Shown here: positions 20,395-60,400 of the stretch, piece by piece
How the letters are laid out: each line of letters starts with the position of its first letter
Position numbering within the stretch: the first letter of the stretch is position 1
Origin: Polytrichum commune
Taxonomy: Eukaryota > Streptophyta > Polytrichopsida > Polytrichales > Polytrichaceae
NCBI GenBank assembly: GCA_950295325.1
Contig: OX485807.1
Location: 37,108,440-37,172,439 of the forward strand
DNA length: 64,000 nt
Direction of reading: 5' to 3'
The notes under the pieces: generated by a model
What the model was told of the DNA's origin: nothing
What the model saw: the letters and a program-made list of their open reading frames with translations, nothing else
The model's database searches: none
Made by a program: the position numbers and the translations under genes

Positions 20395-22641
20395 ATGATG
20401 AGAACTTCGAACATAAATATGATCAGGATGTTGCTATTAAACCTGGTCACGTTTCTGCTATGCTTCAGTTGGAGTCCTGTCCTGGTGAATGGGCAGGGCA
20501 CATGGCAAGTCCTCAACAACAATGTTGGTATTGCTGCCATGCATTGTGCTCTCACTCACTACGACACGGCCATCCTGCTTGATCGGACCAACATTGGGCC
20601 CTCGCAAATCGCATTGCCAGGGGGGAGATGCCGCGACAATCCTCAGGACCTCGTGCTCAAGCACGATTGCACTGCTCACTCGGTCATGTTCACACCCGGG
20701 CCCAACACCGTTCGCGCTTTGTTCATCAACACAGATACTTGGTGCTCCTCGGGGCAGTTCATGGCCGATGGCACCATGGTGCAGACTGGAGGCTGGAGAG
20801 ATGGCAACTTCAAGATCAGAACGCTGGCTCCCTGCCCGAGTGGTGGAAATTGCGACTGGGTGGAGACGAATGTGCCGTTGGTGAATGGAAGGTGGTATGC
20901 CTCCAACCAGGTTCTTCCTGGAGGCAACAGCCAAATTGTGGTGGGCGGCATAGGCGAGCCAAATTACGAGTTTGTGCCCAAGAGGGCAGCGGGAGAGGGG
21001 GCGTTCGGTTTGGGGGTTCTGAACGGGGCCGACAATCTGTACCCCTACGTCTACCTTTTGCCCACAGGAGAAATTTTTATCTTTTCGAATAGGAACGCTG
21101 TTGCCCTCAACTACAACACCGGCGTGGTGACGAGGAATTACCCTGCCATCCCCGGCAACCCCCGAAACTACCCCTCCGCAGGGTCTGCCGCCATGCTCCC
21201 ACTAACATGGCAGACTGGATTCGGGACCGCAGAGATCATGGTGTGCGGAGGAGCGACGGCCCATAACCCAGGGGCAGCCGCATCGGCGAGCTGCGGGAGA
21301 CTCGTGGCGACTGGGGCTGGGGGAGGTTGGGCGATGGAGAACATGCCCATCCGTCGAAATATGGGAGAAATGCTCAACACACCCGACGGCAACATCATGA
21401 TCATCAACGGAGCGCAAAACGGGTACCAAGGATGGGGATTGGCTAATAATCCTGCTCTCAACCCAGTGAAGTACACCCCAGGCGCGGCTGCTGGAACGCG
21501 GTTCCAGGTGCTCGCCGGGACCGGCATTGCGAGGATGTACCACTCCACCGCCAATCTGCTGACCGACGGGCGGATCATGGTGGCCGGAAGCAACACCCAC
21601 CAATTCTACACTTTCACCGGCCCATTCCCTACGGAGCTCCGAGTGGAGGCCTTTTCACCACCCTACCTAGGCGCCAAGTAAGTCCAGCTCAAGAGTCATT
21701 GGAATTTCCACGTTCACTGTAATCCCATTGAACAGCTTATGCTGAAAAGGAAGTTAGGGACTACCAGGCATTATTAACTGGATTCTTCATCAAACATACA
21801 TATAAACCTAAACTCCCTTTGTGCCATAATTCATCAACATCAGCAGGCTCGGGTGCTAAACCATTTCTAAAAAATATTTTTTGGGAGCTGCTTTCGTGTT
21901 ATAAGCATTTTTAAGACTAAAGCCTCTAAGGAATGAAATTCAACAACTAGTAATCTAGATGGTGACCCTTGCTTCTAATTGATTCTAAATATGACATTTT
22001 AAAGTGCAAATTATACCTAATACAAACACAAAATCATATCAATGGATTCCTCCCGATGTTCTCTTCCCAAGCATGTTCTCTTCTTTGTGAAAGAGCAAAT
22101 CATCAATGTATTTGAAGTATTAAAAGTGATTTATGAAAAACCGTTCGAAAAGGGAGAGTTGCCACCCGGGTCAGAGGACATCAAGATTCAGGAGATGGGC
22201 ATTTCAGGCCCATATTTTCAGCTTGTTACAGTTACCTTTAGCCAATGATATAGCAATGGTTTGTGCATGAGACATTTCTAATTCGTTGATCAAACTCCTC
22301 AATGAATCCACTTTTGCAGCTTCAACAATGTGAGGCCCACAATCACTGGTGTGCCCGGGCGGTTCGGATACAATCAGGTGTTCACCTTGACATTTGCGGT
22401 GGGCGCCAGAGTGGGTGACGTGGGAGTGAACATGAACAGCGCTCCTTACTCTACACATTCATTCTCGCAAGGCCAAAGACAACTCAGTCTCAAGACTTCG
22501 GTGCCTGTCGTGGCTGGCGGAGGATGGTCATGCCAAGTTACAGCTCCTCCCAATGCCAACGTCGCTCCTCAACAATACTACATCCTCTTCCTAGTGCAGA
22601 ACGGCATCCCTTCAAGGGGTGCCTGGGTGCACATGGGTTAA
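20395..22641 (+). CDS. GLOX: Secreted copper-radical oxidase (glyoxal/aldehyde oxidase-like), copy 2
   Basis: Two exons, 20395-21677 and 22320-22641, with a 642-bp intron at the same position and phase as in copy 1 (CAA|GTAAGT ... TTTGCAG|C). The product is 534 aa. The signal peptide (residues ~1-33, hydrophobic around 12-31) is unrelated to that of copy 1, but from QGTWQVLNNN on the proteins are almost identical. Catalytic residues are all present: Cys117, Tyr168, Tyr382-His383 and His474. It should be a secreted H2O2-producing aldehyde oxidase like its neighbour. Start choice is slightly uncertain because Met1, Met2, Met9 and Met12 would all leave a signal peptide. Tandem duplication with homogenised exons is the likely history. 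Confidence 0.93.
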
Positions 22642-33392: not shown

Positions 33393-33599
33393 GTGAAGTT
33401 AAACATCATGACGCACAACATATGGGGACTAAACAACCCCATGAGCATTCTTAAACCCAACAGATTCCTTTGGTCCATTTCTCCTAGAGTAGATGTTCTA
33501 TTATTTCAAGAACATAAACTAAAAGGGGGAAAGTTAAAACATCTCAACAAGAGATTAATGCCTTGGAGCATTGGATAGATTTAGAGGTAGAGCCATGTT
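33393..33599 (+). pseudogene. L1-like LINE endonuclease, N-terminal part (left of giant insertion)
   Basis: The frame reads an APE-type endonuclease start: NIWGLNNP (motif N) and, about 30 residues later, LLFQEHKLKGG (motif E, Gln-Glu-His-Lys as in plant L1 elements). The frame breaks at a TAG at 33576 and a small indel, and the coding similarity stops where the inverted repeat of the 15.8-kb element begins. The remainder resumes at 49,357. The LINE was already a target when the large element arrived. Confidence 0.7.
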
Positions 33600-33629
33600 A
33601 ACACTATATTCGGTATTTGGAGACTTTTG
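33600..33629 (+). repeat. Left terminal inverted repeat of the 15.76-kb element
   Basis: It begins AACACTATATTCGG and continues to TTTGGAGACTTTTG. It pairs with 49327-49356 read in reverse complement, with two mismatches. Confidence 0.75.
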
Positions 33630-34017
33630 GTTGATTATGAGACTATATAAGGATGCACATTTCAAAAATGGACCAGTAATGACGACTAAAAATCCCATAT
33701 GTATAATGGTATGCTACTATTATTATACATAAAGGCATGGAAGTGAACAAAAATGTGAGTCATACATGAAAATAGTTGCGTATGAAATGACAACTCGTTA
33801 TGAATGGAAGGGAAGATGCGAAGAATGAATGGAAGTTGAATGAATTAATTGGGATAGAAATACAATTATAATGGAAATACCATCAATGTCTTGAGTAACT
33901 TGGAATAGCATAGAAAGTAAGCACTTAAATATGTTCTACACCTAAGCCCATTTAGGGAGTCCGTCCCACTAGTACGCTTCTAGTCACACTAGTCCGACCC
34001 ACTATTTTTTTTTGCGG

Positions 34018-34890
34018 CTAAGTCCTTTTTTTTGGCGGCCTCCATGGCTTTAAAAATCTCAGGCCCACGACTGTATCCTTGTGTGTTGCCTGGAAAGGAA
34101 TATGTGTCGTTCTTGCATGTTTCAGGACGCGCTCCCAAATTGTACGAGGTGGTATTATAAGTAGAATACGAGGGCGTTTGCGAAAGGGAACGTCTTGCGC
34201 TTCTCCGGAGGGCCAGAGAACGATCGCACTCGGAAGATGCGGCCTTGAGGGCGTGCCTTGGCAATGACGAAGTCGAGGAGGGTTGGCCACCAAGCGAGCG
34301 GGGAGCCACCTGCCAAAAACGCCATAGGAAGATAACAATAAGAACGGAGTGGGGAAAATGAGGAAGGGCGGTTTGGGATGGGCGCTCGTAAACCTCTTGG
34401 CACGCGCAGACAAAGAGGAAAGCAACGGTGAATATGGGTTTAGGGACAAAGAAGGGCACCTTGGATTTGGTGACATCGATCCCGGGGACGATGGGGGCGT
34501 CTGGAGAGCATACGAATCCGGTTGAATTGCGGCACTGTTCAGTAATGTGGGGGAAGCATGGCAAGGAGGGCCAACGACCGGGGATGGGTTTGCAAGAGGA
34601 GGAACGGGGACGACGGGGGAGGGGTTGCACCGGGTTGCTTCCAGGTGGAGACGTCGGCTCGGCCCACGACGAGCGACGGCGTCGTCCCTCGAGGGCGACA
34701 CATGCCCCAAACGAACGAGCGTCCGCTTCTCCTTGGAGAGGGGGGAGGGCGACGGGGCGAACGCACGGGGGACAACCCTAGGGGGCGGGCTGTTGACAAC
34801 ACCGTCGTCGACGTCCCGGGAGTAATCCACGGCCGAGGCCGCGTCGACCGCCGAGAAGTGGTAGAGTGAGGGGATCACGGAATACGTCAC
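34018..34890 (-). CDS. GC-rich hypothetical open frame downstream of the phosphatase exon
   Basis: A 290-codon minus-strand frame, Ser/Pro/Arg-rich (SPSPLSKEKR, NPSPVVPVPPLANPSP), lies just 3' of the leftward gene of the giant element. A second overlapping frame (34630-33989) ends in a lysine-rich tail (AAKKKDLAAKKN). I recognise no domain. The GC content is much higher than in flanking DNA. It may be an exon of a third gene of the element, its real frame may switch by splicing, or it may be non-coding. A CAA-repeat tract lies at 34979-35001. Confidence 0.25.
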   Translation of the reverse strand: MTYSVIPSLYHFSAVDAASAVDYSRDVDDGVVNSPPPRVVPRAFAPSPSPLSKEKRTLVRLGHVSPSRDDAVARRGPSRRLHLEATRCNPSPVVPVPPLANPSPVVGPPCHASPTLLNSAAIQPDSYALQTPPSSPGSMSPNPRCPSLSLNPYSPLLSSLSARAKRFTSAHPKPPFLIFPTPFLLLSSYGVFGRWLPARLVANPPRLRHCQGTPSRPHLPSAIVLWPSGEAQDVPFRKRPRILLIIPPRTIWERVLKHARTTHIPFQATHKDTVVGLRFLKPWRPPKKRT

Positions 34891-35081
34891 GCCGCGGGAA
34901 GGGGAGCCTGGGGACGAGGGGGGACGGGAAAGGCCGTCGAGGACGGGGGCGTCACATATGGGGGCAAACTATGGGGAACAACAACAACAACAACAACAAC
35001 ACAGACAACAAAGACATCCAAAAACGGATGAAGCATTAGATATGTGAACCAAATGATAACACGCACATACATGAAGATATT

Positions 35082-38000
35082 TCAAATGAGTTTATTAAAT
35101 TTCGCGAGCCTCATGATGCTCTTGTATACATTATCGCGGGGGCTTAGTTCCGCATTGCCGATGGGGTTGGACCTAACAAAAAAGGGGATGCTACCGGCGT
35201 GGAGCACAAGCCTTCTAAGGTACGGCGCTAGCGTATCGACCAAAAATGTGTCCTTCCTATCGCCGGTCCACGTGTCGGGAAAGATGACGTTGCCCGGGGG
35301 GTTCAAAACGCTCTTGGCGGGGTTGTCGTCGACCAGGAGAGTGTTCTCCGGAGTAGGCCACCACCCGTGGGGGGTCCCCTGAAGCCGGGGGACGCCGCGC
35401 CAAAGTCTGGACCTGAGGACCTTGAGGAACTGTTGTCCTCTGCCTCGGCCGCCAAACTTGGGAACCGGTAGACCCTTTTCGTCGAGTAGTTCATCGCAGT
35501 CCTCTTGCCCGAGGACAAGGCAAGGGCTCGGGAGATCACGGAATAGGAAGTCGACGATGGGTTCCGTGTTCTCCATGACCATGGAGCTCCACACAATGAC
35601 GTGGGCGAACTCGACCACCTCGCGAAGGAAGTCGTGCAAGCCGGGACGGGCGCGGACAGCCTTGCGGTTTATTAGGGTGTCGAGCTCGCCGTCATAGTCC
35701 CTTTCGTCGGGGTGACGGAAGGGACGCGTGGGGACCCTCGGGATGTGTTCGGTGTGACACAACACCCCGTTGAGGTCAAACACGATGAACGGCTTGTTTC
35801 GGGTCTGAGGTCCACTGGTGGAGGGGTTGCGACCTATCTCCGGGGGGTCCTGTGATTAACAATTCGACTAGTTTAATGCTATGATCCAATAAAGAATTTA
35901 GCAAACATGAAGATGCAGTATGGAAAAAGACGAAGGGCGAGAACAAGGGTACATTTGCGAACGATCGTTCCTGAAAGGCCAGCAGTGACCATGCGCACCA
36001 TTCACGAACGTTCATTTGTGAATGAACTGTATAGTGCATTTACGAACGGGCGTTCGTGAAAGAGATGGTCGCGGGGTGGCATCCTTTTACGAGCGTCCGT
36101 TCGTGAACGAGGCAGAATTGCACAACAGATTTGAACCCGCATGAACATACACAAAACAACCAATGCGAGACGACGCGATTCGATGCAAAAAAATGTTTCA
36201 TTTATATGAATTCCGTGAAAATTTACAGTTTGTCTCAGATGATAAACTATCGTACAGGTTCCTAGGGCAACAGGATGCCGTGTCCTACAAAACTGGTCGA
36301 CCTAAGGAAGCACACAAAAATGGGCTATCGGAGGTCTCGGATGCCGATGTATATAACGCGCCAAAAATACAACGCATGTGGTTAGAGATGTTACGAACGC
36401 GCGTTCGTAAATGCATGCGGTAGTCTCAAAGATGAGTTACCTCATCATCGGAGGGAGGGGCAGCGGCGCTGGATTGAGCGGCAGCTCTCTCCTCAGCGAT
36501 TAACGAACGCGCGTTCGTCACATCCGCCACCGCAGGTGCCTCAGTCTCCATTAGGTCGTCAGCACGCGCCGCCTGAGACGCCTGGGTCTGTTGTATGTCG
36601 TCCTCCTCGCCACCCAAGTCGAGAGTCTCCATGTGCACGTCCCCAATGTATGCGGAGGGATGTCGGTCTTCCGCGGGGCTGTCCTCGACGTCCATCCTCT
36701 GGACGCCTGCGGTGTCACTCGGGCTCCCCTGCGTGTCCTCCACAATGACCAAGTCAGTGTGTCGCGCAGTATCATCGCCCCTTGTCCTATCTAGTAAACT
36801 GGGGACGACGGTGAAAGGTGCCGTGTCCGTCTGTGAAGGCAGTCCTACCCTTGGTGGGGGTGGGGTGAGGACTGTTGGACCTAAAGATTCACGAACGTGC
36901 GTTCGTAAATCCTCGTCCTCACGGATAGCCGCCGAGACTGCGTCGTGTATGTTGGCGGTGTCCGTGGGCATTGTAGGGGGTGGAGGAGTCCCCACTGGCG
37001 TTGGGTGGGGCGCTGGCTGGTAGGAAGGTCCTCCCGGGAAAGGACCGTGCGTGGGGTATCCCGCAGGGAATGGGAATGCTGCCTGAGGGGCCACTGCAAA
37101 GTTTTGCAGTCTGGTCAGCATCGCCAGTATGGCGTCCGTCTTCTCGTTGGAGGACTTCAGCTCCTCCTCAATTTTTCTCATTTTCCGGGCATTCTCCTCT
37201 GCAGCCGCAGCCATGTCTTCCTTCATCTTCTGCTCGAGCTTTGCGTTAAGCTCGGCGACGGAAAGGGCCTCCTCCTTGACCCTCTTGTTCTTGTCGAACT
37301 CCACCCCAAGCTCGACCATAATGTCCATGTCCCCCTCGTCCTCGTCGGAGACCTCGATGATCGCCCCCTCGGGCAACTCCATGTACGGGGTCTTCTTCAT
37401 CCTCCGTCGCGTGTTGCGGAACAGGTCCAACGTGGGACGGGAGCGTTGGTCGAGGATATCGAGGGTCTCCATTTTCGGGACCGCCAGCCTTTGCTTGGGG
37501 GACACTGACGTCGAACAACCTCCTGGCGTGCCGAAGGGCTCCGCGCCTGAGGTAAGCGCGGGGAGGACATCCTGGGTGGCACCCGCCGAGGATCCAGTAT
37601 ATCTAGCCGGGGTCCCTTGGTATTCTGAAGGCTCCCCCGATGGGGCCAACAACCGGAGAGGAGTGACATCCAAAGCCTGGAGGATGGCATCAACGTTGAC
37701 GGAGGGGCCAGGCTCGTCGTCGTCTGTTTCCATGGGTGGCATACCTTCGTTGGCCGGCATGTTGAAGTCCGTTCTGGGCATGGACATGTCAACTAGGTCC
37801 ATCGTCGACGCTTTTGTCCTGTGGAACTTGTAATCCTCCTCGTCGACGGCGTCAATATATGTGTTCACGCACAGGCCCAGCATCTGAGATAAGAAGGCAA
37901 AGATTCAGTCATTTACGAACGCGCATTCGTAAACATGAAGGCTTTGAGCGAGGAAATACTAACAAAATAATTCACAAAACAATCATAAGTATCGGCTGCC

Positions 38001-40819
38001 CATGATAAATTGTTTGGAGCATGCAGTGTTTACGAACGAGTGTTCGTAAAAAGTGGTGTGAGATCGCTTACCATGGCCGCGTACATAAATTTGCTGCCCC
38101 CAAATACGTTGTAGACAGTCTCGCCAGTCATTGCCAAACCCTGCAATATGGAGACGTAGAACTCCATCCTCAGCTCCAGCGCTGGGAAAACAGTGTACAG
38201 AGTCTCCTGGAAGAGATCCTTTGGAGGTGGGTGAGGGATGTTGTATATCTTCTTGAATGTGTTGCTCGCCTTTATGGGTGCTCGCCCATTCCTAAGCGCA
38301 TTGTACGTCAAGAAGATGAGGCTCACCGCTCCCACCTGCTTGTTGCCTCTGGCCTCGTTTACGGCAACAATCCCCTCCGTCTTCGCTGGCACGTATGTGC
38401 TGTGGACGATGTTGTACTCGAACTTGATCTTGTTCTCATACAAATCGATGACGACGGATTGCTTCTCCTGCTCCACAATCCACAGCCATACGTGCGGCTC
38501 CCTCATGGTCGGAGATTTGTGCTCCATGAATTTCGCCATGAAAGGGTTGTAAAAAGGCTCCCCCTTCGCGCCCTGTCGTGAGGCGCCGGGGATCCCTCTG
38601 AAGTCGATGACCGCGAAGGGACAACCCCTTCGATCCTCCCTGACCTCGGACCTGCTGAAGGTGCCGTCCCACTTGAAAAACGTGGTCCTCTCCAGCCCCG
38701 TGGTCACCACACAAAATCTTGCCACGCCCTCGAAGGTGGCGTTCCTCTTCCTCTCCAAGAAGGAGATGTACCGTTGAAGCTCTTCAGGTTCCGTTTCTGT
38801 TTTTTTTGTTCTTTTGTTTCCCTTGAGCTTCAGGACGGCGACGTGCTCCTTCACCAGGCTGCGCATTGAGGCACCGTTGATATTGTACAGCACCTTGAAC
38901 TCCTTCCATTTCGCCCAGTTGATATCCTCGTCGGCCTGAAAAAAGTGCATCTCAGGCAATAGGCCGCTAATCTCCCGCATCGCAGCGGTCTTCAGCTTCC
39001 TGTGGTCGCACCACTCTTTGATCGAGTACGTGCCGGGCTTGTGCTTTGGTCTCTTCAAAAATATCTTGGGATAAGGGATGGTCCTTCCGACGGTGTTCCC
39101 AAGAACGTGAACCGCACAACGTTGCAACTCTGATTTAGTCAGTCCTTGCAGGGCCCTAAAAAATTCCCGCAGTAGAGGCGGGGCCTCTCCGCTCTTCTCT
39201 TGAGCGTACTTCTCTTCTGTGTCTGGGTTCACCAGATCGCCCGAGCTGTGAGCGTCGAAGAACTGGGTCCACAACTCCCAGGTGTCTCTGTTGCAGCAAA
39301 TCAGACGGAGCTCACCTTTGAGCTCCAAAACTAATTTGGTGCTCGTGGACTTCATGTCGATGGAGGAGAATTTGTCCACCATCGCATCACAGAACGCCTG
39401 CAACATACATACGAGGACGTCAGTGTTCAATACTAAATACGAACGCACGTTCATAAGTTGGAAAATTTAGAAATTGTTTAATGCAACATATGCTTTACGA
39501 ACGCTCGTTCGTGAACTCACCTTCCACTGTGGAGATTGCGTCTTGGCGTTCTTCCTCTCTTTTGGCGGGCATCCGTGCGCGACCCACACGTCTCTGGCCG
39601 CCACTATATTCGCCGCCCAGGAGGCCTCGAATGCCTTGATCTTGTTTCCGGAATTCAAAAATGTAGATATTTTGCGGAGCTTGTCCCAGTCGTCAGACCA
39701 AACCAAAAACGCCTTCCAGTAGCGCAGGTCCGCCTTGAGCTCGTGCTGGAAGTTATCATCCTTTAGGATGATCTGTGACGCCTCTAGACTGTGTTGTCCA
39801 TCGATTATCCAGAACTCTCCATTCTGGATTCTTGGCCAATCTTTCTCTGTGGGGCGTGACAAAAAACCCTTGGGCATCACGCAGACGGTCTGCCTATCCC
39901 ACTTGACGTTGTTCATGAGGTTATTAATCTGCCACTTCACCCCCCCCCCGCTTTCATGAGACCTCACCACCCACTTGTTAGGGGATTTCTCGCACTTGAA
40001 ACAATCCACGTTGAAAGTGAAGTGGCGTCCCATAGGCCAGCAATCCTTGGAGTAGTTGTTGAAGTCTCGAAGGATTTTTGTCGCTTTGGCAGCGTCTGGG
40101 TTTTCTCCCTTCTTCAAAGGGGTTGGCATCACTGGCGGAGAGCTAACCTCAGCGCCTTCCGTCAATCCGGACTTCTCCATCTCGTCCCTCGACCTCTTGG
40201 ATGGAGTGGATTGTCTGCTGGGCCCTTCTGTCAACCTGCTCCCCGAATGCACAGGCCGCGGAGCACTTCTCGATCCTCCTGCCCCCGAAGCAGCTAGTTT
40301 TTTCGGACTTTTTTTATTTTTATTTGCCTCCGCGGCAACACTGTTGTACTTCGAAACATTCAAGGTCAGGGCAGTCAACTTCCTCGCCATCCAATGTTGA
40401 CTCAGGGCATATTTGGTAAAGAGAGCATCCAGGTTGAAATGTTTCGCATCGGATGCGACATTATTGCATGCATAAGCATAAGAGAATGGGTGCAATAGGT
40501 AGTTTAAGAGGAGGTTCACATGGTCTTTTTTATTTTTCATATCCAGAATAACAAAGTCTCCTTGTGCCTCTACGGACTCTATCTCCCAATTCTTTGTCTG
40601 CACCCATTGGTCTGGTTGGTCAGCCCTTGTCTGCAGCTCATAAGTGAATCGCAATGCAAACAACCCTTCGTCGGTCTTCGTGGGGATGGCCGTCCACTCA
40701 GCCATGACTTCTTCTTTTGGGACATAGTTGTCGTTCCCATTGGTATCCGAGACTCCCTCTGGAAGGCGCTCCACTGGCACTGCGAACAAGTCGATGGCGT
40801 TTCTGCTAGCTTTAGCCAT
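35082..40819 (-). CDS. Multi-exon gene of the giant element: ParB-like start, coiled coil, FCP1-like C terminus
   Basis: Four exons fit with all junctions in phase 0: 40819-39521, 39397-38072, 37883-36441 and 35804-35082. That gives about 1,596 aa. The first exon is preceded by a good acceptor (TGTGATGCAG), so more 5' exon may exist. Exon 1 contains WIIDGQHSLEAS, like the DGQHR core of ParB/sulfiredoxin-type nuclease domains. Exon 2 is a ~440-residue globular region I do not recognise. Exon 3 is acidic, with a coiled coil (about EELKSSNEKTDAILAML) and Pro-rich stretches. Exon 4 is an FCP1/NLI-type phosphatase: FIVFDLNGVL with Asn in place of the second Asp, as in some plant relatives, then IVWSSM and LLVDDNPAKS. 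Every visible intron carries TTACGAACG palindromes, often within 30 bp of the donor. The last junction (CTCAG|ACC at 35804) is the least certain. Confidence 0.6.
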
Positions 40820-41339
40820 CTGCATCACACAAGAGCAAATCAGAATCGCTTTTACGAACGTTCGTTCGTAAACAACACCGTGCCATGCATACTATTTTCA
40901 TAGTGTGGTTTTTGGAAATACGAAGTTTTGAATGCTTTATGCATTTCAGGGTGGTTTCCAATGCATTCACATTGGTTCACATCTTTCACGAACGCGCGTT
41001 CGTAATATGAGATACCTGTTTATTAGTATTTTGTACATAACTATACGAACGCGCGTTCGTAAAGTCATGCGATATTGTGTAACCTACTGAGTTAAATTTT
41101 AGTGTTGTGATTGGATTTAAGTACTTATATGAATTACAGCATAGATATATCCCTCCATTTTGGATTTAGGGTTTCGAACGCACGTTCGTAAACGTAGTCC
41201 TTGGGTTCCAAAGAATCTTTACGAACGCGCGTTCGTAAAATGGTATATATTTTGCGCGGCACATGCATTTACGAACGCGCGTTCGTAAATGGTTGTATAT
41301 TGTGCGCGGTAGAGGTATTTACGAACGCTCGTTCGTAAA
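35953..41339. repeat. Palindrome cluster, left group
   Basis: Copies of TTACGAACGNNCGTTCGTAA, often extended to 22 bp by T/A, occur near 35953, 35999 (decayed), 36039, 36086, 36391, 36503, 36893, 37912, 38029, 39438, 39494, 40851, 40986, 41043, 41172, 41218, 41268 and 41318. The last three are spaced exactly 50 bp apart. Most lie in introns or the 5' region of the leftward gene, while 36503 and 36893 are in its third exon. Arms are 9-10 bp and the two centre bases vary. Confidence 0.9.
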
Positions 41340-42769
41340 TGAGCCTGTTGTTTGTTTTTATATATATAATTAATAATAACAATATAGTGTCCGTACATAT
41401 ATGGATTCGTATATATACGAACTCGTATATATACGTATGGCAAGGTCTTGCTTGCTGTGTCTCAGCAAAGCTTGCACTTGTGCCTGCAAGTGTTCGTCAG
41501 AAAGGTGAGATTGAAGAAAAACAATACAATCAAAACATATAGACTTGGAATGTGACAGAGAATTCAGAATGAGGATCCGAACTTGACTTCCAAAACACAT
41601 GCCATTCAATAATGAACAAATATAGACTGTGAAGGATTTGAGAATGGAAGGAATATTGTGCTTACTCTGAAATTTTACACACCCAGAAGCTGCTTGCTCC
41701 CTTGTTGAAAACCCCAGGAAACCCCACAAAAGCAAGGTGATTTGAAAGTCAAATGCACCACTGCACCACTGAAATTGCCTTCACACTAGTTGTTGCATGC
41801 TATGTACAAACCCTAACTAAGACTCTGATGTATATGCAACTTCAAATGCAGTATCTCTCAAGCTGCTACTCTAAAATTTGCAATTATCAAGCTTATAGCT
41901 TGAGTATCCTAATCTTAAGCTTCCAACTCTCAAGCTTTCAACTCTACAAACTTTCAACTCTCCAACTTTCAACTCTTCTAGCTCGAGTTCTCTATTCTTA
42001 AGCTGCAACTCTCAAGGGACTGTCAATAACTCTCAACACTTGCGCCTACAAAAGAAGTGCACCACACAAAACTAAAAATTGCAAGAGCTTCGCCTCTAAA
42101 CTCTAAACCAACGCGGCGCTCCTCCTCTCTCTGCTCCAAATGAGAATGAGGAAGGAGAGGAGGGGGCGCGGGGAGGTAGCCCGCGCCTCTAGGGTTTTCC
42201 CTCGGGCTGCCACATGGCCGCTTCCCATTGGGGAGGGAAGGGATGGGTCGGGCTAGGAAGATGAGGGGATGGGATGGGGAGATAGCATGGGGTGTGGGAT
42301 GGGTGGATGGGGGGGATGGGTTGGAATTCATTGGGGTTTAGTAATTCAATGTAATCAAAGCACATAAATATATTCAATGTGACTTAATAAAGTGATTTGC
42401 ATGGGGGGCACTAACCGATTTGACATAAATATATGTCATCACAATAAGAAATGCAACTATATATTACACCATTTGCACTTAGTTTGAGACTTTCCCAACT
42501 CTCTAATTAACGAAAATAATCTAAGTTGGATGTATAAGCAATAAAGGCACGTTAATTTCAAGCTTTTTAATATGTATATGCCTCCATCACATAAACATAA
42601 GGAGTCCAGTACAAAACATGCATTTTAAATGCTACATCCCCTTCATCTACTTTGGATACATTGTAAACATCTTCTAGATAGGGAGTATGAATTCAATTTC
42701 CACATTGCACATCATGTACTAGGGATTCGATGAAAACCCTACCCCCAACGATGTGTATTAATATGGTTG

Positions 42770-42963
42770 TTTAGAAATTCCCTGTTTTGGGACGGGTTGT
42801 TTTTTCTTTAACCTTTCCATGGACGGGTTGGTTTAGAAATTACCTGTTTTGGGACGGGTTGTTTTTTCTTTAACCTTTCCATGGACGGGTTGGTTTAGAA
42901 ATAATTACCGGTTTTGGGACGGGTTGCAATTTTTTTTGCCTTTCAATTCAAGGTTTTTGGACG
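42770..42963 (+). repeat. 62-bp tandem repeat, about three copies
   Basis: Units start at 42770, 42832 and 42894 with TTTAGAAAT and contain GTTTTGGGACGGGTTG. The first two are almost identical and the third is diverged at its 3' end. Confidence 0.85.
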
Positions 42964-43395
42964 TGGACGGGCAAAACCTTTGTGAAAAATCAGCCTTCGG
43001 TGGGGGGGTTTAAAAAAGAACAACTATACAAAATGTACAAGTAACACTTGTACAACTAAAACCCTAAACCATGAACATTTATAGAATTAACACTAATTGT
43101 TTTTAAAAAGAGGACCCTAAGGTTTAATACAAAAAAAGCATAAACGATAGTATATATAATTCAACTTAACTATTAATTGAATGAAACATTCTACAATATG
43201 TAACACTTATAACGACTTGAATGTATAAGTAATGAGTTCACATTAAATTCATGATTTGTAAACCCTATATGTAATGGATGCGTCTATCACATTAACTTCA
43301 ATAACTTAGTAAACATGCTTGAATTTTGTTTATCGTCATTCATCTGAGGACATTTTAGATCGAACTTGTGCATTGCAGCCATGTGGTCGAATACA

Positions 43396-43415
43396 CTAAA
43401 CCCTAAACCCTAAAC
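43396..43415 (+). repeat. Short interstitial telomere-type run
   Basis: CTAAACCCTAAACCCTAAAC is the complement of the plant TTTAGGG telomere repeat, here in fewer than three units. It supports a plant origin but is too short to show a chromosome-end event. Confidence 0.6.
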
Positions 43416-44660
43416 ACTATCACCAACCCTAAACTCTATATCCCTGCATCTTTGTATCTTACATGGTAGTCTTGTATGTGGCCATGTTGTGATCTATGGG
43501 CATGTCAAAATGATCTACCGATGTTCGATGGATTGGAAATTGCTTTATTCGATTCATATCAATTGTAATAATTGAGAATCATGCCGATTGTCATTTGGAG
43601 ATTCTAAATTAATTGAATTGAGACAAAAATTTGGTTTATGTAATTAATAAAACTTGAAACTTAAGAGTTTTGATGAAATAATAACTTAATAGTTATTATA
43701 CAATTTGATCACACAATCCATACTTAATATTATTATAACTTACATGTCTTAGGCTCTTGCTCTTAATTCATGCGTCAATGATTTTCTGTTCATGGGTCCA
43801 TGAGTCCCACTCCCACCTTATTGAGTGATATAAATTTAGTTTCTAAATTTAGTTTCTTTTATATATCAAGGTTAAGAAGAGTTATGGATGGTATTTCCAT
43901 TGAATTGATTCAAGTTCCATTAATTCTCGGTATGTTCCCTTCCTTTGGGGTCTATTTCTCATTTCATGTGCAAATATTTTCATGTAACTATGTTTCATAA
44001 TTTCGTTCACTTCAATGCCTTTATGTCTAATATAAGGTGTATCCGATTTGGAAACTATACGTATGGAAGTTTTAGTTTGTAATTACAAGTCCATATTTGA
44101 AATTTAAAGTGCGTTCTTAAATAGTCTCCAATTACCAAATATACCATTATTATATTAGATATGAATTGTTAATTAACTTGGACTTCACACCTTGGTTGCA
44201 AATCATTTAATCTTCTATGTCAAAATTCATAATATTTAAATATCATGAAACATATATATGTATATATATATATATATAGATTTGGTGGTTCAGACCTTGG
44301 TTACATCTAAGGTGTGCGACCGATTTACATTTTTTTCCAATATAATGTGCTTGCATGCAATACATGTTGCATACAAAATGCTATTTATATAATTGGTCAT
44401 GGCGGGAATGGCATATTGGTAGGTCTAGGTAGGGGGCGGGAATCCGCTTTTTAAAGAGCATCCAAGAGATTTTGAACCACCGGGGGGAGGTACTTAAAGC
44501 TTTTCCCCCCACGGGAGAGCTCTTTTCTGCGGCTGACGGGAGGTGTGCGCTCTAGAGAGTCGTCGGAGCGCGCTCAAGCCACCCTCCTGTTCGCCAACCG
44601 TACTCCTCACAGGTACACGACATAGCATATCCCGCATATACCGCCGCAAATACCGGATAC

Positions 44661-45722
44661 TTACGAACGCTCGTTCGTAAGTATGAGGTCCCATCACTAG
44701 CACAGTTGGATCGGACGGAATGTTGTGGTTTTACGAACGTGCGTTCGTAACTACCAAAGTATACCAGAGTCGACGTTGTGACACATGTATATCAATCATT
44801 TGTAATGCGAATGGTGGTTCATTTACGAACGTGCGTTCGTAAATGTGGCATCTATGCTTTTATGTATGTGCAATTATAAATATACTGGTTGTTCATTTAC
44901 GAACGTGCGTTCGTAAGTACGCCATCTATGATTTCCTAGTGTATACATTCAAATGGGGGTTGCTGTGGTTTTACGAACGCGCGTTCGTAAGTATGAGGTC
45001 CCATTACTAGCACAGTTGGATCGGACGCAATGTTGTGGGTTTACGAACGTGCGTTCGTAACTACCAAAGTATACCAGAGTCGACAGTGTGACACATGTAT
45101 ATCAATCATTTGCAATGCGAATGGTGGTTCATTTACGAACGTGCGTTCGTAAATGTGGCATCTACGCTTTTATGCATGTGCAATTATAAATATAATGGTT
45201 GTTCATTTACGAACGTGTGTTCGTAAATGTGGCATCTACGCTTTTATGTATGTGCAATTATAAATATAATGGTTGTTCATTTACGAACGTGCGTTCGTAA
45301 GTACGCCATCTATGATTTCTTGGTGTACACCTGCAGATAGTGATTGCTGTGGTTTTACGAACGTGCGTTCGTAAACATGCTATCTATTTTGTCCCGATAT
45401 ACTCTTGGAAATTCGGGATAGTTGTGGTTTACAAATTTTTCTCGTTAATACAACATGCGAGTTCTGTACTGGTTTCTAGAAAAAACTCCTCGTTTATAAA
45501 CCTTTATACCCAAACTCATTCATCCTATGCTATACGAACGTACGTTCGTGTAAAAAACTTGTACGTTCTGCTCATGCAGGTCGATGTTCTGTAATTAACG
45601 AACGCACTTTCGTAAATTCCATCAGCGATCAATATGATAGCACTTTGAAAGTCTTTCTAAGTTATTGACTTCCACACATAGGCACATTCACTATTGCAGT
45701 CGTATACGAACGGACGTTGGTA
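44661..45722. repeat. Palindrome cluster, right group, with 310-bp higher-order repeat
   Basis: Palindromes of the TTACGAACGNNCGTTCGTAA type start near 44661, 44731, 44822, 44896, 44971, 45041, 45132, 45206, 45280 and 45354. Decayed copies lie near 45533, 45595 and 45703. Spacings run 70, 91, 74, 75, 70, 91, 74, 74, 74 bp. The block from 44661 is duplicated from 44971, with flanks such as GTATGAGGTCCCAT and CCAAAGTATACCAGAGTCGA shared, and the 74-bp subunit is amplified once more in the second block. The array ends just before the rightward gene, so it occupies its promoter or 5' UTR. Confidence 0.9.
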
Positions 45723-45730
45723 TTTAGAAC

Positions 45731-48700
45731 TTGACTGATTTGACATGCTGCGTTGAATGTCGTCCATGTTGGCTGTCATTCTTTCGTTTACGTTTGGGTC
45801 TCCTGGTGCCTCTGGTTTTTGTAGGTGGGATGGCGATGCATGTGGGTGGTAGTTCTCTGGAGTTGTCAACAGACATGTCGTCCTCCGTTCGTGAATGTGA
45901 AATTTCATCCTCATCCGCGTGTAGTTTTGACGACACAAACGTGGAGGGTGTGTCATTGCGTACATCCTCTCATGATTCTTTTCAAGTACACGACAGTTCT
46001 CTACATTCCGGTGTGGACGACGATGACATTCCTTTGTGTACAGGATATGGTAAGGAGAAATGGGTGGGCCTTGATGTGGTTCTACTTAATGATCTAGGTG
46101 TCCCGGTGGCAAATGACATATGTAGAAACTCCGATCCCCGTGAATGTGTTGATGCCAATCCACTTGGTCTCCATGATGTTGGGGTGTGCATCTTGAATTC
46201 TTTGCTTCCGCTTGAGGTCCCTGTGACTTGGAGGTTTTCATTGCGCCGATGGCCCCTTCGTCGGGTTCTCCATGAAGAAGTAAGCTTGTGGGATCATGGG
46301 CGACGGCATGAGCAAATTCAATCAACCTTGGTTTCCAACACTCGTCCTCGCAAAGGCCTCCGTAGATATGATTCTAGCCGCGCGCCTCCTGATGATAAAG
46401 AGCGTCGACGGGATCGCATAATAGGAGACGATTCTATCCGTCTCGTGTCCGCCAAGGACTGTTGTGCAAAAAGATGTTGCCAATTTTTCCCCTGCGAAAA
46501 AATTAAGTCTTTGCGTCAGGAGATGTGGCTCGCGGATTTTCGTATGAGGTTAGCAAAGAAACTCGAGGTCCATAGAAATTTGCACCTTGATGCCTATGGC
46601 CATAAGGTGGTGACCCTCGAGAATGTGGAAGTGTGTTGTACCGCATGGTATACCATTCATGCCGTCTCCAAGGCTGACTTTTATAGGTTTAGAAAGTATT
46701 CATCATTGGGTCGTCGCTCTCGATTTCATGGCAATGCGGGCACAAAGAAACCTAGGGAGGCTACACTCCAAGCCTCCGCCACACTCTCCACAATCATAGT
46801 GCCATTGGCCGATGCAATGCCCCATAAGACGAGGACATTGTCGACAGGGGAGAAAGTTGTTCAAATGGTGTTGCCCACGGGCACAAAATGGAAGAACATA
46901 TTAACGGATATCAACGAAGTGGGTCGCATAGTGGGTTGTGGGTCCATTTCTTTGTCCAAGTTGAGTGTTATTAAAAACCAACAATTTGCAGAATACATTT
47001 TGAAGAGACCTGGTGACAAGTTCGCGAGGTGCACGACGTGTGAAAAATACAAAGGTCTTCGAGATGCCCACCCCATAGGTACTGAGTCTCATACCAGGCA
47101 TCAAGCAAAATATATTGAACATGTCAACAACCAAGAGGCTCACCGTCAAGATTACTACAAGAACCGTGCTCTGTCCATAATGAGGCCTACAGAGGTTCTA
47201 ACAATTATCCATGATAAAATGGACCACTCGAAGACCGCATGCCCTTGTTATGCTCGCAAAATAAAGGCTACAGATGGTCTTTTCAAGTTACCCGTATCTG
47301 TAACAGGTTTGTATGGCATCACAAACCTATTTTCACCCTAAATCCTATTTTATTGGGTGGTTTTTCCAAATATTCTACTTTAGTGGTCTCTTCATTTTTT
47401 TGGAGATTAACCCATCGTTTGTTTTTTATAGGTATGATTGCCCACGGCCATGGGGACGTAAAATATGCCCATTATGGTTTGGATTTTTACCCTGGCGATG
47501 CTAACCACACGGTGGGTTCATTTGCAAAACTCTTGCGCGATCTAGAGAAACCGCCGATACAGTCTTCACGTGCATTGTTTGATGGGTGTGGAACGACACC
47601 CCTTTATGAGGCAGTGCTTGCGGGTAAGGAGGTTTATATGTCGTCATTGCCGGAAGCATCCGGAGAGCTTATTTGTGCAAAACCTTTGCCTCCAACTCTC
47701 CACGTTCAACTTGATAATTGCGCAAAGGACAACAAATGTCGATACGTATTTTGTTTTTGGTCTTTGCTTGTGGCAAAAGGTATCTTCAAGGAGGTGTTTG
47801 TGTCTTTCTTGATGGTGGGACACACACATGACGACATTGATGCGTCCTTCGGACGGTGGAGCATGAAGTTGCATGAGGAAGATTTTCCAACCATATCACT
47901 TCTTATGAAATTGTATATGGATTTGGACCATATGCCGGTGATTCCGCACATGATCGAGGAAGTACCAGATTTTAAGGCCTTCATCAAGCCATACATGTTG
48001 AAAGGAGGGGACCGTTTGGTGGGACACACCAAAGCACAACAATTCCGATTCTATATGAGGGATGATGGTCTCCCGGCCATGCAATTCAAGCTTTTGTGCA
48101 CATCTCCTAATTGGGGCCCGGATGATGGTATACTAGTATGGCGTCAAGACAATGATGGGAAATGTTTGCTCCCGGATGGGGATCCAAAGCCTTGTAAACC
48201 CGACCCCATGAGGAATGAACCGGAGATCATCAAATGTATATCCAGATTCATTGAATATTGGAAGGAGTTGTGTGAGGAGGACATCACTAGACGTGTTAGA
48301 GATACTCATGAACCATTGATTTCATATTGGGATCGCATTCGCTCGGCATTAGTGACAGTTGATGGCGACACCCGTACGACTTTGACACAAGGGTTTTGGC
48401 CACAAAGTCGTTTGACGGTTGTCGAGTCCGACACCATGTTTTTCAGCAATGGAGACGTTCGTGAAGAGTTCGCAATGGATGAACATTACATTGGCCCTGC
48501 CCGCAATCGACCGGCACCGTCGTTTCGTGTTGGGGTTGATTGCCACGAAGGTTATATGGTGCTCGTACAAGCTGGGGATGAGGAGCATCTCAAACCAATT
48601 TGGTTGGTGAAAGCATTGTCTTCACCCAATTTTGTTCGAACTAGCCCCAACTTTCGTCAAATTGAGGTGGAATATTGCCGTCCAAGCACTAAAGACCAGA

Positions 48701-48951
48701 ACGTGCTTCGCACTTATTTAGGTTAGGACACCAAAAAGAATTTCAAGTGGATAGTGGACTCAGCGTACAAACCGGTTTGGATAAACACGGATACTATACT
48801 TTGTGCTTGGAAGCCGCGCAAAGGTTCCAAAACAGAATCAATGACCATCCCCCAAAAACATATAGATTTTGCCAAGGACAATTTGGCACGTATTGCAGCT
48901 GCAGAAAATGACTTGGACAATGGATATGAAGCGGAAGATGGAGATGGGTAA
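45731..48951 (+). CDS. DUF7869-like protein, candidate transposase of the giant element
   Basis: Two exons, 45731-47306 and 47432-48951, are joined by a 125-bp intron (ACAG|GTTTGT ... TTTATAG|GTATG). The combined length is 1,032 codons with one in-frame TAG at 48724-48726. That is one G-to-A change from Trp, so this copy may be recently disabled. The start is uncertain: Met34 (ATG at 45830) follows a possible acceptor. Recognisable features in order are a Cys-rich CCAKRCCQFFPC with an Arg/Lys helix, CTTCEKYK, IIHDKMDHSK, HVQLDNCAKDN and VGHTHDDIDASFGRW. The last three spaced acidic motifs match what I recall of DUF7869 proteins, common in expanded transposon-like families of non-seed plants, and could form a DDE-type catalytic site. 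This is inferred from motif spacing only. Confidence 0.6.
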
Positions 48952-49326
48952 ACATAACATACTAGGTGGGAGTTAATCGCGAGAGGCATGTGAGCTTAGC
49001 AAGCTTGGTTTTTAATAGACTTAGTAGACTTGTCACATTCCATTGTGGCATATGTTTGGGATGTGTCATCCAATTTTATAAGACCCTTACTTTTGGGATG
49101 GGCACCCTAAACTCTAAAATGACAAAAACAATTTGTTTTTAAAAGTCCATTGTTATTTTTTACATGGACTACACGTTTTCATTGTAATTGAGACTTTCTA
49201 TTTTTAGTAATGATAATATTCTGCGCATGCGAATTTATAAATCATCATGTTCTTGATGTTCCCAATATTCTATATGCCCACAATATTGGCATCCCAAACT
49301 ATGGGCATATTTAATTTTGAGACTTT

Positions 49327-49356
49327 CAAAAGTCTCCAATTAACGAATATAGTGTT
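49327..49356 (-). repeat. Right terminal inverted repeat of the 15.76-kb element
   Basis: It reads CAAAAGTCTCCAATTAACG followed by AATATAGTGTT. A subterminal hairpin (GAGACTTT/AAAGTCTC, 49319-49336) overlaps it. It is the reverse complement of the left terminus with two mismatches in the 28 bp from the CACTA onwards. Confidence 0.75.
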
Positions 49357-50150
49357 TGTTACAAAAGTTGGCTTAACCATGATGGAGCCGGAAAAGGGGG
49401 AGTAAGTATTTTACTAGCTTCCAAATACGCTAGATTATTCACATCATCTAGGTCCATCATGAATAAGAGAGTCATATGAATCAAGATGGAAGGTAGAGAA
49501 GGGTTCAACCTAGGCATTGCATGTATCTACGCCCCCAATATTCCCTCCTATAGAAGTTCACTTTGGCAAGATATGACAAAATCCTTGCCTAAGGATTGTA
49601 GCTGGAAGTGACTTCAATATCACAAAACACCCCAAGGATAAATCACAAGATTGTGGCAGAACCAAAGTGATCTAGAAACATTCAATTGGAACTCCCTAAT
49701 GCATGCCCTCCAACTACATGACTTGTTTCAACATAGGGGTGGGCCACATTTCTTGTGGGATCACCAACAACAAGGGCTAGAGCATCATCTTGCTCAGCTA
49801 GACCATATACACTTAAGAATAAAGGGGAAGATTTCATTCTTGCAGCTTATGCAATTCATGGAGATTCTCTTGGATTTTATCATTTCTCGCTTAAGTTAGA
49901 ACTAAGTATTAGCACAGAAGAAAGCAAGTCATTACCATGCAAATGAAATGCATCTTATTTGAAAGGTTTGGGGGGTTGTCCTTGGTGAGTCCTTTGTTAC
50001 TTGGTTCTCTATTACTTTTTACATGGCAACATGGCGCGTTTGAGTAAATCTGCCTCCCCTCAAAGTGGGAATGTCTTCCTTGGTTCTTAGTGCATTTGGC
50101 GATGACTTTTTGGCCTCCTATCTCAAAAATAAAATAAAATAAAATCATTA
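49357..50150 (+). pseudogene. L1-like LINE, endonuclease remainder and 3' end (right of giant insertion)
   Basis: It continues the endonuclease of 33393-33599. GAGKGGVSILLASKYA is followed by CIYAPNIPSYRSSLW, DCSW (where the GDFN motif should follow), and SDLETFNWNSLMHALQ ... HRGGPHFLWD, the standard order in plant L1 endonucleases. Several frameshifts separate the pieces. Reverse transcriptase is absent: the sequence passes to a LINE 3' end (GGCGATGACTTTTTGGCCTC, then CTCAAAAATAAAATAAAAT ending near 50146). This is an internally deleted LINE and the host of the large insertion. Confidence 0.7.
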
Positions 50151-56805: not shown

Positions 56806-57468
56806 GGGAGAACTAAATGTTCTCGGTTTTTACTTTAGACTTGAGAACGGGAAGCATACGGGCTCATGCAATGTCCAATGCCTCAACTCGTTTGTCTACA
56901 AGAAATTTGTTAAGAAAAATGAAAAAATATTTGGTAAATATGTTGAATTTACCCCCCATCCAAAAAGTCTAGACGGGATAAATGCACCTAGTAAAGAAGA
57001 GCTAGTTAGACTTGGATTTTCAGACGTGAACACCGCACTTGCAAACACCATCCAAGCTCTGGAGAATGGACCGCACCAAAACATCACCAACAAAGATCTC
57101 AACAAGATGGTAGAAGCAGCGGTAAAAAAGGGGACGGATGAAATACGAAAGGAAATGGTGAACCTTAAAGGTAAGATTGTGCAAGAGGCAAAAGTTTATG
57201 CCGACCATGTGCAAGCGGAGTCAAACAAGAATTCCAAGCTCCAAATACAACTCCTTCAAAGGCAAATGAAGATTACCTTGGATGCTATCGAAGCGCCTCA
57301 TCCGGACATATCGGAAATTGAAAACAATATGGACTTGACAAACTAATTTCAACAAACATCCCGGCGGCGTACAATTATAAATTACTTATAGTATATTTAT
57401 ATACTAAAAACAAAAACATAATTAAATTATTAATATATACTAAAAATAAAACCCTACATATAGTATTC

Positions 57469-60400
57469 ATGAATACTATAACATCAAAAATTCACAAAGA
57501 AAACCCCTCCAACACCTCACAAAAACAAATCTATTTATTCACAATACAACAATATCCTATCCAATACAACAAAGTACACAATACGGCCTCGGCCTACCGG
57601 CCTCGCCACAAAATAAAACTAACAAGATATATACACTACAACTCCCTCAACCCCATCATTAACACAATCACAAAGCCTACCCACCAACATACTAAACCTA
57701 TACACTACCTCCCAAAAACTACACAAAAAACAATAATTGCAAATAAATCTACAAAATACATACAAAATCTATTTCCGGAATTTAAACTCATTTTCAACAA
57801 CACACATGCACTCACAAGATGCATACAACAAAGAATGCCTTATACCCCCGGAAGAGGAGGCTTACTCACACTTATCCACAAGAAATATGCATTCCCTGGG
57901 AATATCACAAAAATTCCCACACCAGTAAATATATCCCCATACCTACAAATAATTAAAATAAACAACCATCCACTAATACCTTGGCTAATCATACGCATGT
58001 ACATGCCTACACACTTAGAAGACACATGCCTCATTCCACACCTTAAGAACGAAATCACTAACGAAATCACTATACACCCCAATCATATGTATACATTATG
58101 TGGGGACTTTAACCGAGATATCGCACTTAGAGGCAGACAAAATAACAACATTAACACCCCTCCACAAGAAGAAGATTACCAATGGAAAATTTTCACCGCA
58201 TCACTCAACCTAGAATATATCCCAACTAATACAAGCATCTCCAGACAAGGAGGCTATAATTATACATCAACAAGTCTAATAGATGGATTCTACATTCATT
58301 CACCAGACAACAGCAAATTCATTTTTACCACAAACACAAACATAAATCTAAACTCAGACCATTATCCAGTTGTACTACATATCCCCCACAACACCCTTAT
58401 AGCCAGATCCCCACCCCCCACAAACACGTCACCAACTAGAATACTAAACCCAATACCACCAGAAAACATCGAAAAATTCAACATAACATTCTTCGAAGAA
58501 AACTCTGCACAAATAAAAGCCCTTACCACCCTACTCGAAAATCACCAACACTTAAGCCTGGATCAATGGGCAGAAGCCTGTATAACATTCGACCACATTA
58601 TATACAAAATTTCAGAAATAATTGAAGAAACTTGTAAAGCAGACCCACTACCCAACCTTACGAACAGAACATCACAACAAGGTGGGTTTTTGCCACGTAA
58701 ACTTGCGAGAAAATGGAAAAGACACCTCAACACATATCACCTCATCAGGAAAACCATATACATTGCACAACACGATCCACTCTAGCAAGCACACCCCATC
58801 CTAAACGATATACGAAACCACCAACACACAAATATCCCACACCCACCTGTTACAACGGCACCTCCTACTGAATGGATTGATACCATAGCAACCATCGCAA
58901 AAAATGCAAATAAAGAAGCCAGGAAAATCACCACAAAATATACCAAAGACTGCATTCTAAAGGCCGTATCAAAATACCGTCAAATGTATGAAAAAAGCCC
59001 CAAAAAGATAAATTGAAAAGTCTTCAAGAACACTAAAACCTCACCCCTGGACTCCATTGATAGACAAAACAATATATTAACTAACCCAGAAGACATCGCA
59101 GCAGAAATATACACGCAACAATCCATCAGTAACCGTCCTACAGTTCCCACATGCCAATATCAAAATACACACCCACTACACTGTACATGTAGAGTCCGGC
59201 AATATCCATGGCATGACTTAGACGGATACATCATTGACAAACGAGGACAACCCCAAACCCCCCTACACACGTATTTTGACCAAGAAACATATGACTTTTG
59301 TCTTAAAAACCTAAGTAATAACAAAGTCCCAGGCCCAGACAAAATACCCAATTCAATTCTAAAAAACATGCCTCCACGCTTCCATAAATTACTCTTCTTA
59401 TTTTTTAAACATTGTTATAAACAAAAACAAATCCCTGCATCATGAAAAACCAATCTAACAGTTTTACTATACAAAAAAGATAACCCATCACAACTAACAA
59501 ACCATAAACTTATTGCACTAGCTAACACCTTATATAAATTCTACACGAGTACATTAACTTCTATCCTATCAGCGTATGGAGAAAAATACCAAATATTACA
59601 CGATAATCAAGAAGAGTTTAGAGCAGAGAGAAGCACTTCTAGACAAATCCAATTATTAATCGCAGCGCTTGAAGACGCAAGACTCACGAACCAAGATATA
59701 TATATCCTTTACATTAACTTCAAAAACGCCTTCGGCTTCATTGATCACGCCAGACTTTTAGCCATAATGAAAGATCTAGGATATCCCACTGACTCCATAA
59801 ATCTCATAGGAAACATATATTCACAATCCTCAACAATATTCACTAGTGAACACTTCGGTAAAATCTTACCAATCCCCATTCAAAGAGGTACAATACAAGG
59901 TGATACCCTTAGCCCATATCTATTTATCATATTCCTAGAACCCCTCCTCAGATGGCTACAACAAGGGAATAATGGATACACTTTTGGTACATCTAAAATT
60001 AAAATTCATCAGCAGCATATGCAGATGACCTAGTAGCAATCGCCAATAAACTAGAGACACTACAAACACAACTCAACAAACTAGACAAATTCTGCGAATG
60101 GGCAGGAATGGATCTTGGAATACCCAAGTGCGCAATAACTGGATGCCCAAACAAATCCAAACTTCACCCCACAACCTTCAAAGCCCTAATCCAATCTACC
60201 AATATCAACTACAGAAACCAACCTATACCAGTCTTAAACCAACATGAACCATACACGTATTTAGGAATAAACCTTGCGCCATCACTTAAATGGAAAACAC
60301 AAATAAATACCACTACAGCTAAAGTAATAAAACAGTGTCAAGCCCTTGTAACATGCCCAGCTACTATGAAACAAAAAATAAACATGGCAGATACAGTCAT

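Follow-up and report, generated by a model that had tools for sequence, protein, structure and literature searches.

A giant transposon with terminal inverted repeats, two divergent transcription units and palindrome arrays in the moss Polytrichum commune

The stretch of Polytrichum commune DNA analysed here (the window; 64,000 nt of contig OX485807.1, forward-strand positions 37,108,440 to 37,172,439, assembly GCA_950295325.1) contains an element at positions 33600–49356 that is, with near certainty, a DNA transposon bounded by terminal inverted repeats (TIRs). As an initial annotation of the letters had proposed, it holds two divergent transcription units, one with a DUF7869 domain (Pfam E 3.8e-41) and one, on the minus strand, with a NIF domain (E 1.2e-16), together with its own palindrome arrays. 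Positions below are those of the window (element position + 33559), and the copies or loci compared are denoted W (the window element), A, B, C, D1, D2, F1–F3 and Z. The features are as follows.

33596–33599, no strand: left target-site duplication, TGTT (flank sequence and empty site)
33600–33629, plus: left TIR, AACACTATATTCGGTATTTGGAGACTTTTG (inverted-repeat search; joint end pattern at 877 places in the genome)
35082–35855, minus: NIF/FCP1-like open reading frame (ORF), probably the last exon, motif FDLNGVL (Pfam NIF 1.2e-16; ratio of non-synonymous to synonymous substitution rates, dN/dS, 0.085 to copy A)
35954–36411, no strand: five palindromes between NIF exon and exon 3 (element positions 2395–2831)
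36441–37883, minus: exon 3, coiled-coil/acidic by eye, with two palindromes inside (dN/dS 0.21 to copy A)
37884–38068, minus: intron 2 with two palindromes (splice sites)
38069–39397, minus: exon 2 (dN/dS 0.07 to copy A)
39398–39520, minus: intron 1 with two palindromes, one starting 5 nt past the exon end (AAG|GTGAG, then the 22-mer)
39521–40819, minus: exon 1, called 'ParB-like' solely for its motif IIDGQHSLEA, with a tentative start codon (dS saturated, no dN/dS)
40851–41339, no strand: seven palindromes in the leader/promoter of the minus-strand gene
44660–45724, no strand: thirteen palindromes upstream of the DUF7869 gene, partly in 74-bp and 310-bp tandem repeats
45830–47306, plus: DUF7869 gene exon 1, start codon tentative, containing VLTIIHDKMD and ending KLPVSVTG (dN/dS 0.05–0.10)
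47307–47431, plus: DUF7869 gene intron, GT...AG, 125 bp (family D has an uninterrupted frame across this point)
47432–48726, plus: DUF7869 gene exon 2 with the domain (Pfam E 3.8e-41)
49327–49356, minus: right TIR (inverted-repeat search)
49357–49360, no strand: right target-site duplication, TGTT (flank sequence and empty site)

Ends, insertion site and genome copies

The two TIR arms, of 30 nt each, are complementary at 28 of 30 positions (93 %), or at 26 of 28 when counted from the CACTA as in the initial annotation, and TGTT flanks them on both sides. A genome search with the two flanks joined and the element removed gave 11 matches, consisting of the two flanks themselves, six that span the junction by their coordinates and three partial ones. 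The two of the junction-spanning six that were aligned (L076 and L077) run uninterrupted through ...GAGCCATGTTACAAAAG... with a single TGTT, and so represent the empty site; they align identically and are possibly one duplicated locus. The two flanks thus belong to one repeat, as had been claimed. By motif only (QEHKL and GIACIYAPN), this repeat appears to be the endonuclease region of a decayed sequence like a long interspersed nuclear element (LINE); one 163-aa piece of the flank gave no Pfam match.

Allowing two mismatches, the end pattern was found at 433 + 444 = 877 places in the 408-Mb genome and the backward control at none, indicating that the ends do not match by chance. If most ends are paired, the genome would hold about 400 elements. 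Pairing was followed on contig C1 (below 71.3 Mb) with the 71 ends of zero or one mismatch among the matches listed. Neighbours within 35 kb were head-to-head in 22 cases versus tail-to-tail in four and in the same direction in one, with head-to-head spans of 7.6–25.4 kb (median 16.5 kb); 27 ends had no partner among the matches listed. Ends lacking an interior, a possibility raised in the initial annotation, were not seen among these C1 pairs, the shortest of which is the one of 7.6 kb.

Flanks were fetched for 20 pairs, 15 of the 22 on C1 and five picked from the end matches on C2 and C3. Exact 4-bp target-site duplications were present in 19 of these 20 as well as in the window copy, and they have no fixed sequence (e.g. 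TGTT, ACCT, CACT, CCTA, TTGT, TAAA, AAAG, ATAG, CCTT, TAGT, CCAA, CCGG, GTGT, CGAT). Two of the 20, L058/L059 and L060/L061, have common flanks and count as one insertion. These are G000:C3:44442957-44458736 (15.7 kb) and C3:44557422-44580272 (22.8 kb), which have identical flanks in opposite orientation and probably arose when the segment bearing the insertion was duplicated in inverted orientation, after which one copy was enlarged. The left-end matches that were scored (n=40) are 98–100 % identical over about 300 bp. With further copies, their duplications and an empty site all found, as the initial annotation had advised seeking, the window copy belongs to a large, recently active family of giant transposons with units of 15–25 kb.

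Inside the window element, two stretches resemble its own right end (42483–42527, 80 %) and its inverted left end (43705–44143, 77 %), as if a related element had left a remnant in the stretch that separates the two genes.

Two families with unrelated ends keep one divergent gene plan

A genome search with the Pfam DUF7869 profile yielded 1491 candidates, of which 150 were scored and all 150 exceeded the cut-off; none of 14 control genomes gave a signal. DUF7869 genes without the window-family ends, which the initial annotation had named as evidence against the element, do exist, yet this group (family D) has TIRs and 4-bp duplications of its own. Alignment of two copies with a 692-aa open frame revealed the right end and then the TIR, ATGGGGATATTAACTAAAATGAG[AC]C, which occurs at 97 places with up to three mismatches (control 0). 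Within 70 kb, D ends were head-to-head neighbours in 37 cases versus one tail-to-tail and three in the same direction; the head-to-head spans are 9.5–62.5 kb, 17 of the 37 lying between 24.8 and 25.2 kb. All 10 of the pairs fetched have exact 4-bp duplications. The D ends are thus unrelated to those of the window family, while the duplication length is identical. D1 and D2, on different contigs, align in three blocks of 98.7–99.7 % identity that together cover most of 21.9 kb. Units of 16–25 kb are present in near-identical copies.

The gene order in D is that of the window element: a 482-aa ORF, a second, a third and a NIF-like ORF, with the DUF7869 gene opposite. The D NIF and DUF7869 genes match W, A, B and C (W–D E 1e-28 and 1e-147), and the 482-aa 'ParB' ORF matches W and A (W–D E 5.9e-9). 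Codons were compared between W and each of A, B and C over six exons. Of these 18 comparisons, dS was computable in 10, with dN/dS of 0.05–0.24, and two met one stop each; all three comparisons of the 'ParB' exon had saturated dS. Purifying selection is shown for the other five exons. The second gene diverges faster than the DUF7869 gene, and dS between W and A varies along the element from 0.28 to saturated, which suggests that lineages may exchange sequence.

Many DUF7869 copies keep open frames, and dN/dS was 0.05–0.11 in the five of six DUF7869 comparisons with computable dS. The frame in the window ends about 75 codons early relative to the 577-aa open frames of other copies, with coding similarity extending to about 48948, and the D gene reads through the point of the intron in frame. 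Candidate acidic motifs are IIHDKMD at the end of exon 1, QLDNCAKDNK and GHTHDDID, in an order that would fit an RNase H-type DDD enzyme; not all are intact, the second being QASNFGRENK in Z and the third VGRTHDDID in B. Open frames in many copies and low dN/dS fit the proposal that the DUF7869 protein is the transposase, which we regard as likely, and they fall short of proving it. Scans of viral contigs (two) and prokaryote genomes (one) gave no confirmed DUF7869 relative. PDB sequence matches for the proteins of the element were at chance level and were rejected (none in one search, E 0.5 and 0.89 in another, E 2.1 in a third), as were hits of scattered similarity to a bacterial toxin binding component (E 0.05–0.12) and hits to four other kinds of protein (E 0.21–1.2). 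A sigma-70 promoter scan was set aside as irrelevant to a plant.

The second gene was described initially as ParB/FCP1-like. Its FCP1 half stands, through the NIF profile (61.3 bits in W and 44.5 in D; cut-off 21.8), while the ParB label is a motif-level one. Neither Pfam nor NCBIfam gave a family for the 'ParB' ORF of W at E≤1, and PHROGs gave a single match at E 0.27; the GQH-box motif of this ORF is one that we take to resemble the ParB/DGQHR box. All four splice sites checked are present in W, B and D. In copy A the exon-3 acceptor no longer has its AG. Copy C lacks the AG at the exon-2 acceptor, and the search pattern used did not find an exon-2 donor there. A GAG|GTAA conserved just before the exon-3 stop in W, A, B and C could join exon 3 to the NIF exon, giving one gene, although the NIF ORF may instead be a gene of its own. 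The catalytic motif of NIF/FCP1-like phosphatases is DxDx(T/V); W, A, B and C have DLNGV at this place, and D has DVNGI. As Asn replaces the second catalytic Asp in these five copies, the domain is more likely to be a binding part than a catalytic one. No VANC-type family, which we take to be of the DUF1985 type, was found in the four minus-strand ORFs (Pfam, E≤1).

Palindromes and the protein that may read them

The palindromes are 22 bp long and lineage-specific, with the arms TTTACGAACG, TTTACGGACG, CCCACGGGTG and CCCACGGGCG. Across the nine loci compared, these four motifs have a common shape and the differences between lineages are mirrored on both arms. With up to four mismatches, TTTACGAACGNNCGTTCGTAAA occurs at 31 sites in W and 29 in A, and TTTACGGACGNNCGTCCGTAAA at 21 in B and 25 in C, versus none in any of the five dinucleotide-matched random sequences used per motif test; the 'dozens' of the initial annotation are thus borne out. 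The two motifs differ by one change per arm, and at the same threshold each element also fits the other's motif (17–25 sites), while D scores 0 against both. Exact copies of ACGAACGNNCGTTCGT number 21 in W, 23 in A, none in B, one in C and none in D1, D2 or Z. The D motif, CCCACGGGTGNNCACCCGTGGG, has 19 sites at up to four mismatches; it is carried by F1 and F2 as well, whereas F3 carries CCCACGGGCGNNCGCCCGTGGG. The 10+2+10 layout is taken from the variability of the centre in W and A, as even spacers of 0–8 score nearly alike because the arms are nested; the centre is mostly fixed in B, C and D (CG; AA/TT/AT).

Of the 31 sites in W, 29 fall in sequence not predicted to be coding exon. By estimate the coding exons take up about half of the element, giving P=2e-7 under independence of the sites, a condition that tandem copies violate. 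The 29 comprise five in the gap between exon 3 and the NIF ORF, two in intron 2, two in intron 1, seven in the minus-strand gene's leader and 13 upstream of the DUF7869 gene. In D and F1 some sites lie less than 1 kb from either end (the D1 distances are about 0.6 kb at the left end and 0.2 kb at the right, and F1 is alike). Genome-wide, exact 20-mers number 3737 for the W motif, 1310 for the B motif and 819 for the D motif (controls 0). Among 50 B-motif sites listed, 41 are inside four TIR pairs, six inside a single end and three unassigned; of 100 W-motif sites listed, 57 are inside a single listed end.

Three further arrays were observed. At G000:C1:640865-646098, 31 exact W-motif palindromes occupy 5 kb with no window-family end listed nearby, possibly belonging to another lineage with the same motif. 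At the Z locus (L032/L033), a palindrome of different sequence (GGGTGAGGCA..TGCCTCACCC and variants), with an ambiguous centre, is repeated about 30 times next to a distant DUF7869 gene with 26 % identity to D; no match to the second gene of D was found within the 17 kb examined, and Z is a possible third independent lineage. At the D1 locus, about 4.5 kb past the right end of the D element (G000:C2 ~4183250-4183840, L029), repeated palindromes GGATGGCCGTTAACGGCCATCC form another repeat with a 22-bp palindrome.

Elsewhere in the window, two ORFs at 9233–10546 and 20275–21681 (437 and 468 aa), presumably glyoxal-oxidase-like, are very similar by eye and form a direct repeat that seems to stem from recent duplication of a host gene. 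Positions 57000–63995 hold a second LINE-like stretch with a GC skew of -0.3 to -0.5 and long open frames with, by eye, reverse transcriptase- and RNase H-like sequence.

Taken together, these results lead us to favour, by a modest lean, a giant TIR transposon with 4-bp duplications, a DUF7869 DDD transposase and a second protein that would read the palindromes and keep the genes active. The ends, the duplications and the empty site point to cut-and-paste movement, with the DUF7869 protein probably making a 4-bp staggered cut. The product of the second gene would be a large multi-exon protein, with a GQH[ST]xxA motif in its N-terminal part and, probably, a phosphatase-dead NIF/FCP1-like domain at its C-terminus. 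A protein reader is suggested by the symmetry and placement of the sites, and the product of the second gene may bind them as a symmetric dimer. Once bound, it might sustain the activity of both transcription units or protect them from silencing, in the manner of VANC in VANDAL elements, a proposal drawn from the placement of the palindromes in introns of the presumed regulator and upstream of the other gene, like VANC21 motifs. For this part taken separately, that the second gene encodes such a reader, we put the likelihood a little below an even chance. The motif accompanies the divergence of both genes: second-gene and DUF7869 identities are 81 and 93 % for W/A, 85 and 94 % for D/F1 and 82 and 93 % for D/F2, which have the same motif, and 74 and 88 % for D/F3 and 43 and 77–82 % for W/C, which have different ones. 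As the ranks of both genes agree with the motif, the idea that it follows the second gene rather than DUF7869 was withdrawn.

Several observations weigh against the favoured reading. Across these five pairs the motif change does not single out the second gene, in which no ParB or DNA-binding profile was found (Pfam at E≤1 for W and E≤10 for D and F3 core, NCBIfam, PHROGs and PDB), and the 'ParB' ORF of D has no match to B or C at E 1e-3. No profile or PDB sequence match shows an RNase H fold for DUF7869, and single-sequence structure models of two window stretches had a mean pLDDT (predicted local distance difference test) of 33 and 34, too low for use. Two of the 31 W sites are within coding exon 3, 43 of the first 100 W-motif sites listed are inside no listed end within 18 kb, and one of the 20 copies lacks a matching duplication (AAAT/TAAA).

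The palindromes could instead be sites for the transposase, or for a TnpA-like repressor or synapsis protein comparable to those of En/Spm subterminal repeats, rather than for an activator from the second gene. This is a less probable but serious alternative: En/Spm-type transposons bind their own repeats, the sites here are symmetric, dense and largely element-specific, the motif change goes with DUF7869 divergence too, and some D sites are near the ends. However, the TIRs are without such palindromes, the W sites begin 2.4 kb inside and stop 3.6 kb before the right end, and the arrays occupy leaders and introns, as regulatory sites would. A role as RNA hairpins (in splicing, decay or small-RNA production) or DNA cruciforms is distinctly unlikely. 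Perfect 10-bp arms with a 2-nt centre could fold, and in W and A one site starts 5 nt past an exon end, but the arm sequence is near-constant within a lineage, where a hairpin would require pairing only, a 2-nt loop is poor for RNA and there are sites in the upstream arrays too. That the second gene is a captured host gene, a passenger with no role for the element, seems very unlikely; NIF/FCP1 domains are common in plant genes, yet this multi-exon gene is kept in order across families with unrelated ends, has low dN/dS in exons 2, 3 and NIF and has palindromes in its introns.

A stronger form of the favoured reading, which we consider unlikely, is a private code, with one dimeric reader per lineage, encoded by its second gene, that would spread from or act at the 22-bp palindromes while its FCP1-like domain engages RNA polymerase II. 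The phosphatase-dead domain would then keep the element transcribed against silencing, and symmetric one-letter changes would make lineages mutually blind. Should the GQH box truly have a ParB-type fold, the arrangement would amount to a eukaryotic parS-like clamp serving anti-silencing.

Comparison with known systems

In the literature searched, DUF7869 was named in no paper found. Among the papers listed on ParB-like proteins with transposons, on giant palindrome transposons in plants and on Sola with bryophytes or duplications, titles and abstract openings gave no earlier account of such an element.

Membership in CACTA/En-Spm (CMC) with an unusual duplication is close to untenable. The ends of one family contain CACTATATTCG with the CACTA letters, and large size and internal repeats are common to both. 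However, the duplication is 4 rather than 3 bp, the mismatch that had already raised doubt in the initial annotation, and the termini begin AACACTA in the window family and ATGGGG (ATGGGGATATT) in D. DUF7869 is the sole Pfam family above the cut-off in the transposase candidate (W, E≤1; D protein, E≤10), with no CACTA transposase domain in its ORFs, and the assignment was rejected. Bacterial ParB-parS likewise has palindromic sites in arrays and a GQH-box motif, but no profile similarity was found, and the gene here is eukaryotic, multi-exon and probably joined to a NIF-like domain.

The nearest superfamily, on our best reading, is Sola, matched by description rather than sequence ('Sola-like'). 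According to the available text of PMC10741241, Sola elements have a DDD transposase, 4-bp duplications and variable termini, some exceed 15 kb and they are present in the moss Physcomitrella. The 4-bp duplications (19 of 20 and the window copy; 10 of 10 in D), the candidate DDD transposase and the large size are all similar. The duplications here are mixed, in contrast to the AT-rich 4-bp duplications given for Sola2 in the part of PMC3627910 available, and the portions of these two papers at hand mention neither a second gene nor palindromes for Sola.

In regulation, the window element may on our best reading work like VANC of the VANDAL elements without being a relative. In these Arabidopsis Mutator-like elements, short motifs that differ between lineages lie in tandem repeats, in introns and upstream regions, and for the VANC21 motifs so placed, binding and demethylation have been shown (PMC5735166, as far as its available text goes). 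Element-specific motif arrays in introns and upstream regions are found here too, with 29 of 31 sites outside coding exons. The duplication and transposase are different, no VANC domain was found by Pfam, and the motif is a 22-bp symmetric palindrome rather than one of 9 bases, in a system known from sequence. An abundant, recently active group of 15–25 kb transposons would join the plant repertoire and, if the favoured reading is true, DUF7869, a Pfam domain of unknown function, would gain a function. The natural one-letter palindrome variants between lineages make the question of specificity directly testable, and the element may be a second, independent case of a transposon-coded regulator with its own DNA motif, after VANC in Arabidopsis.

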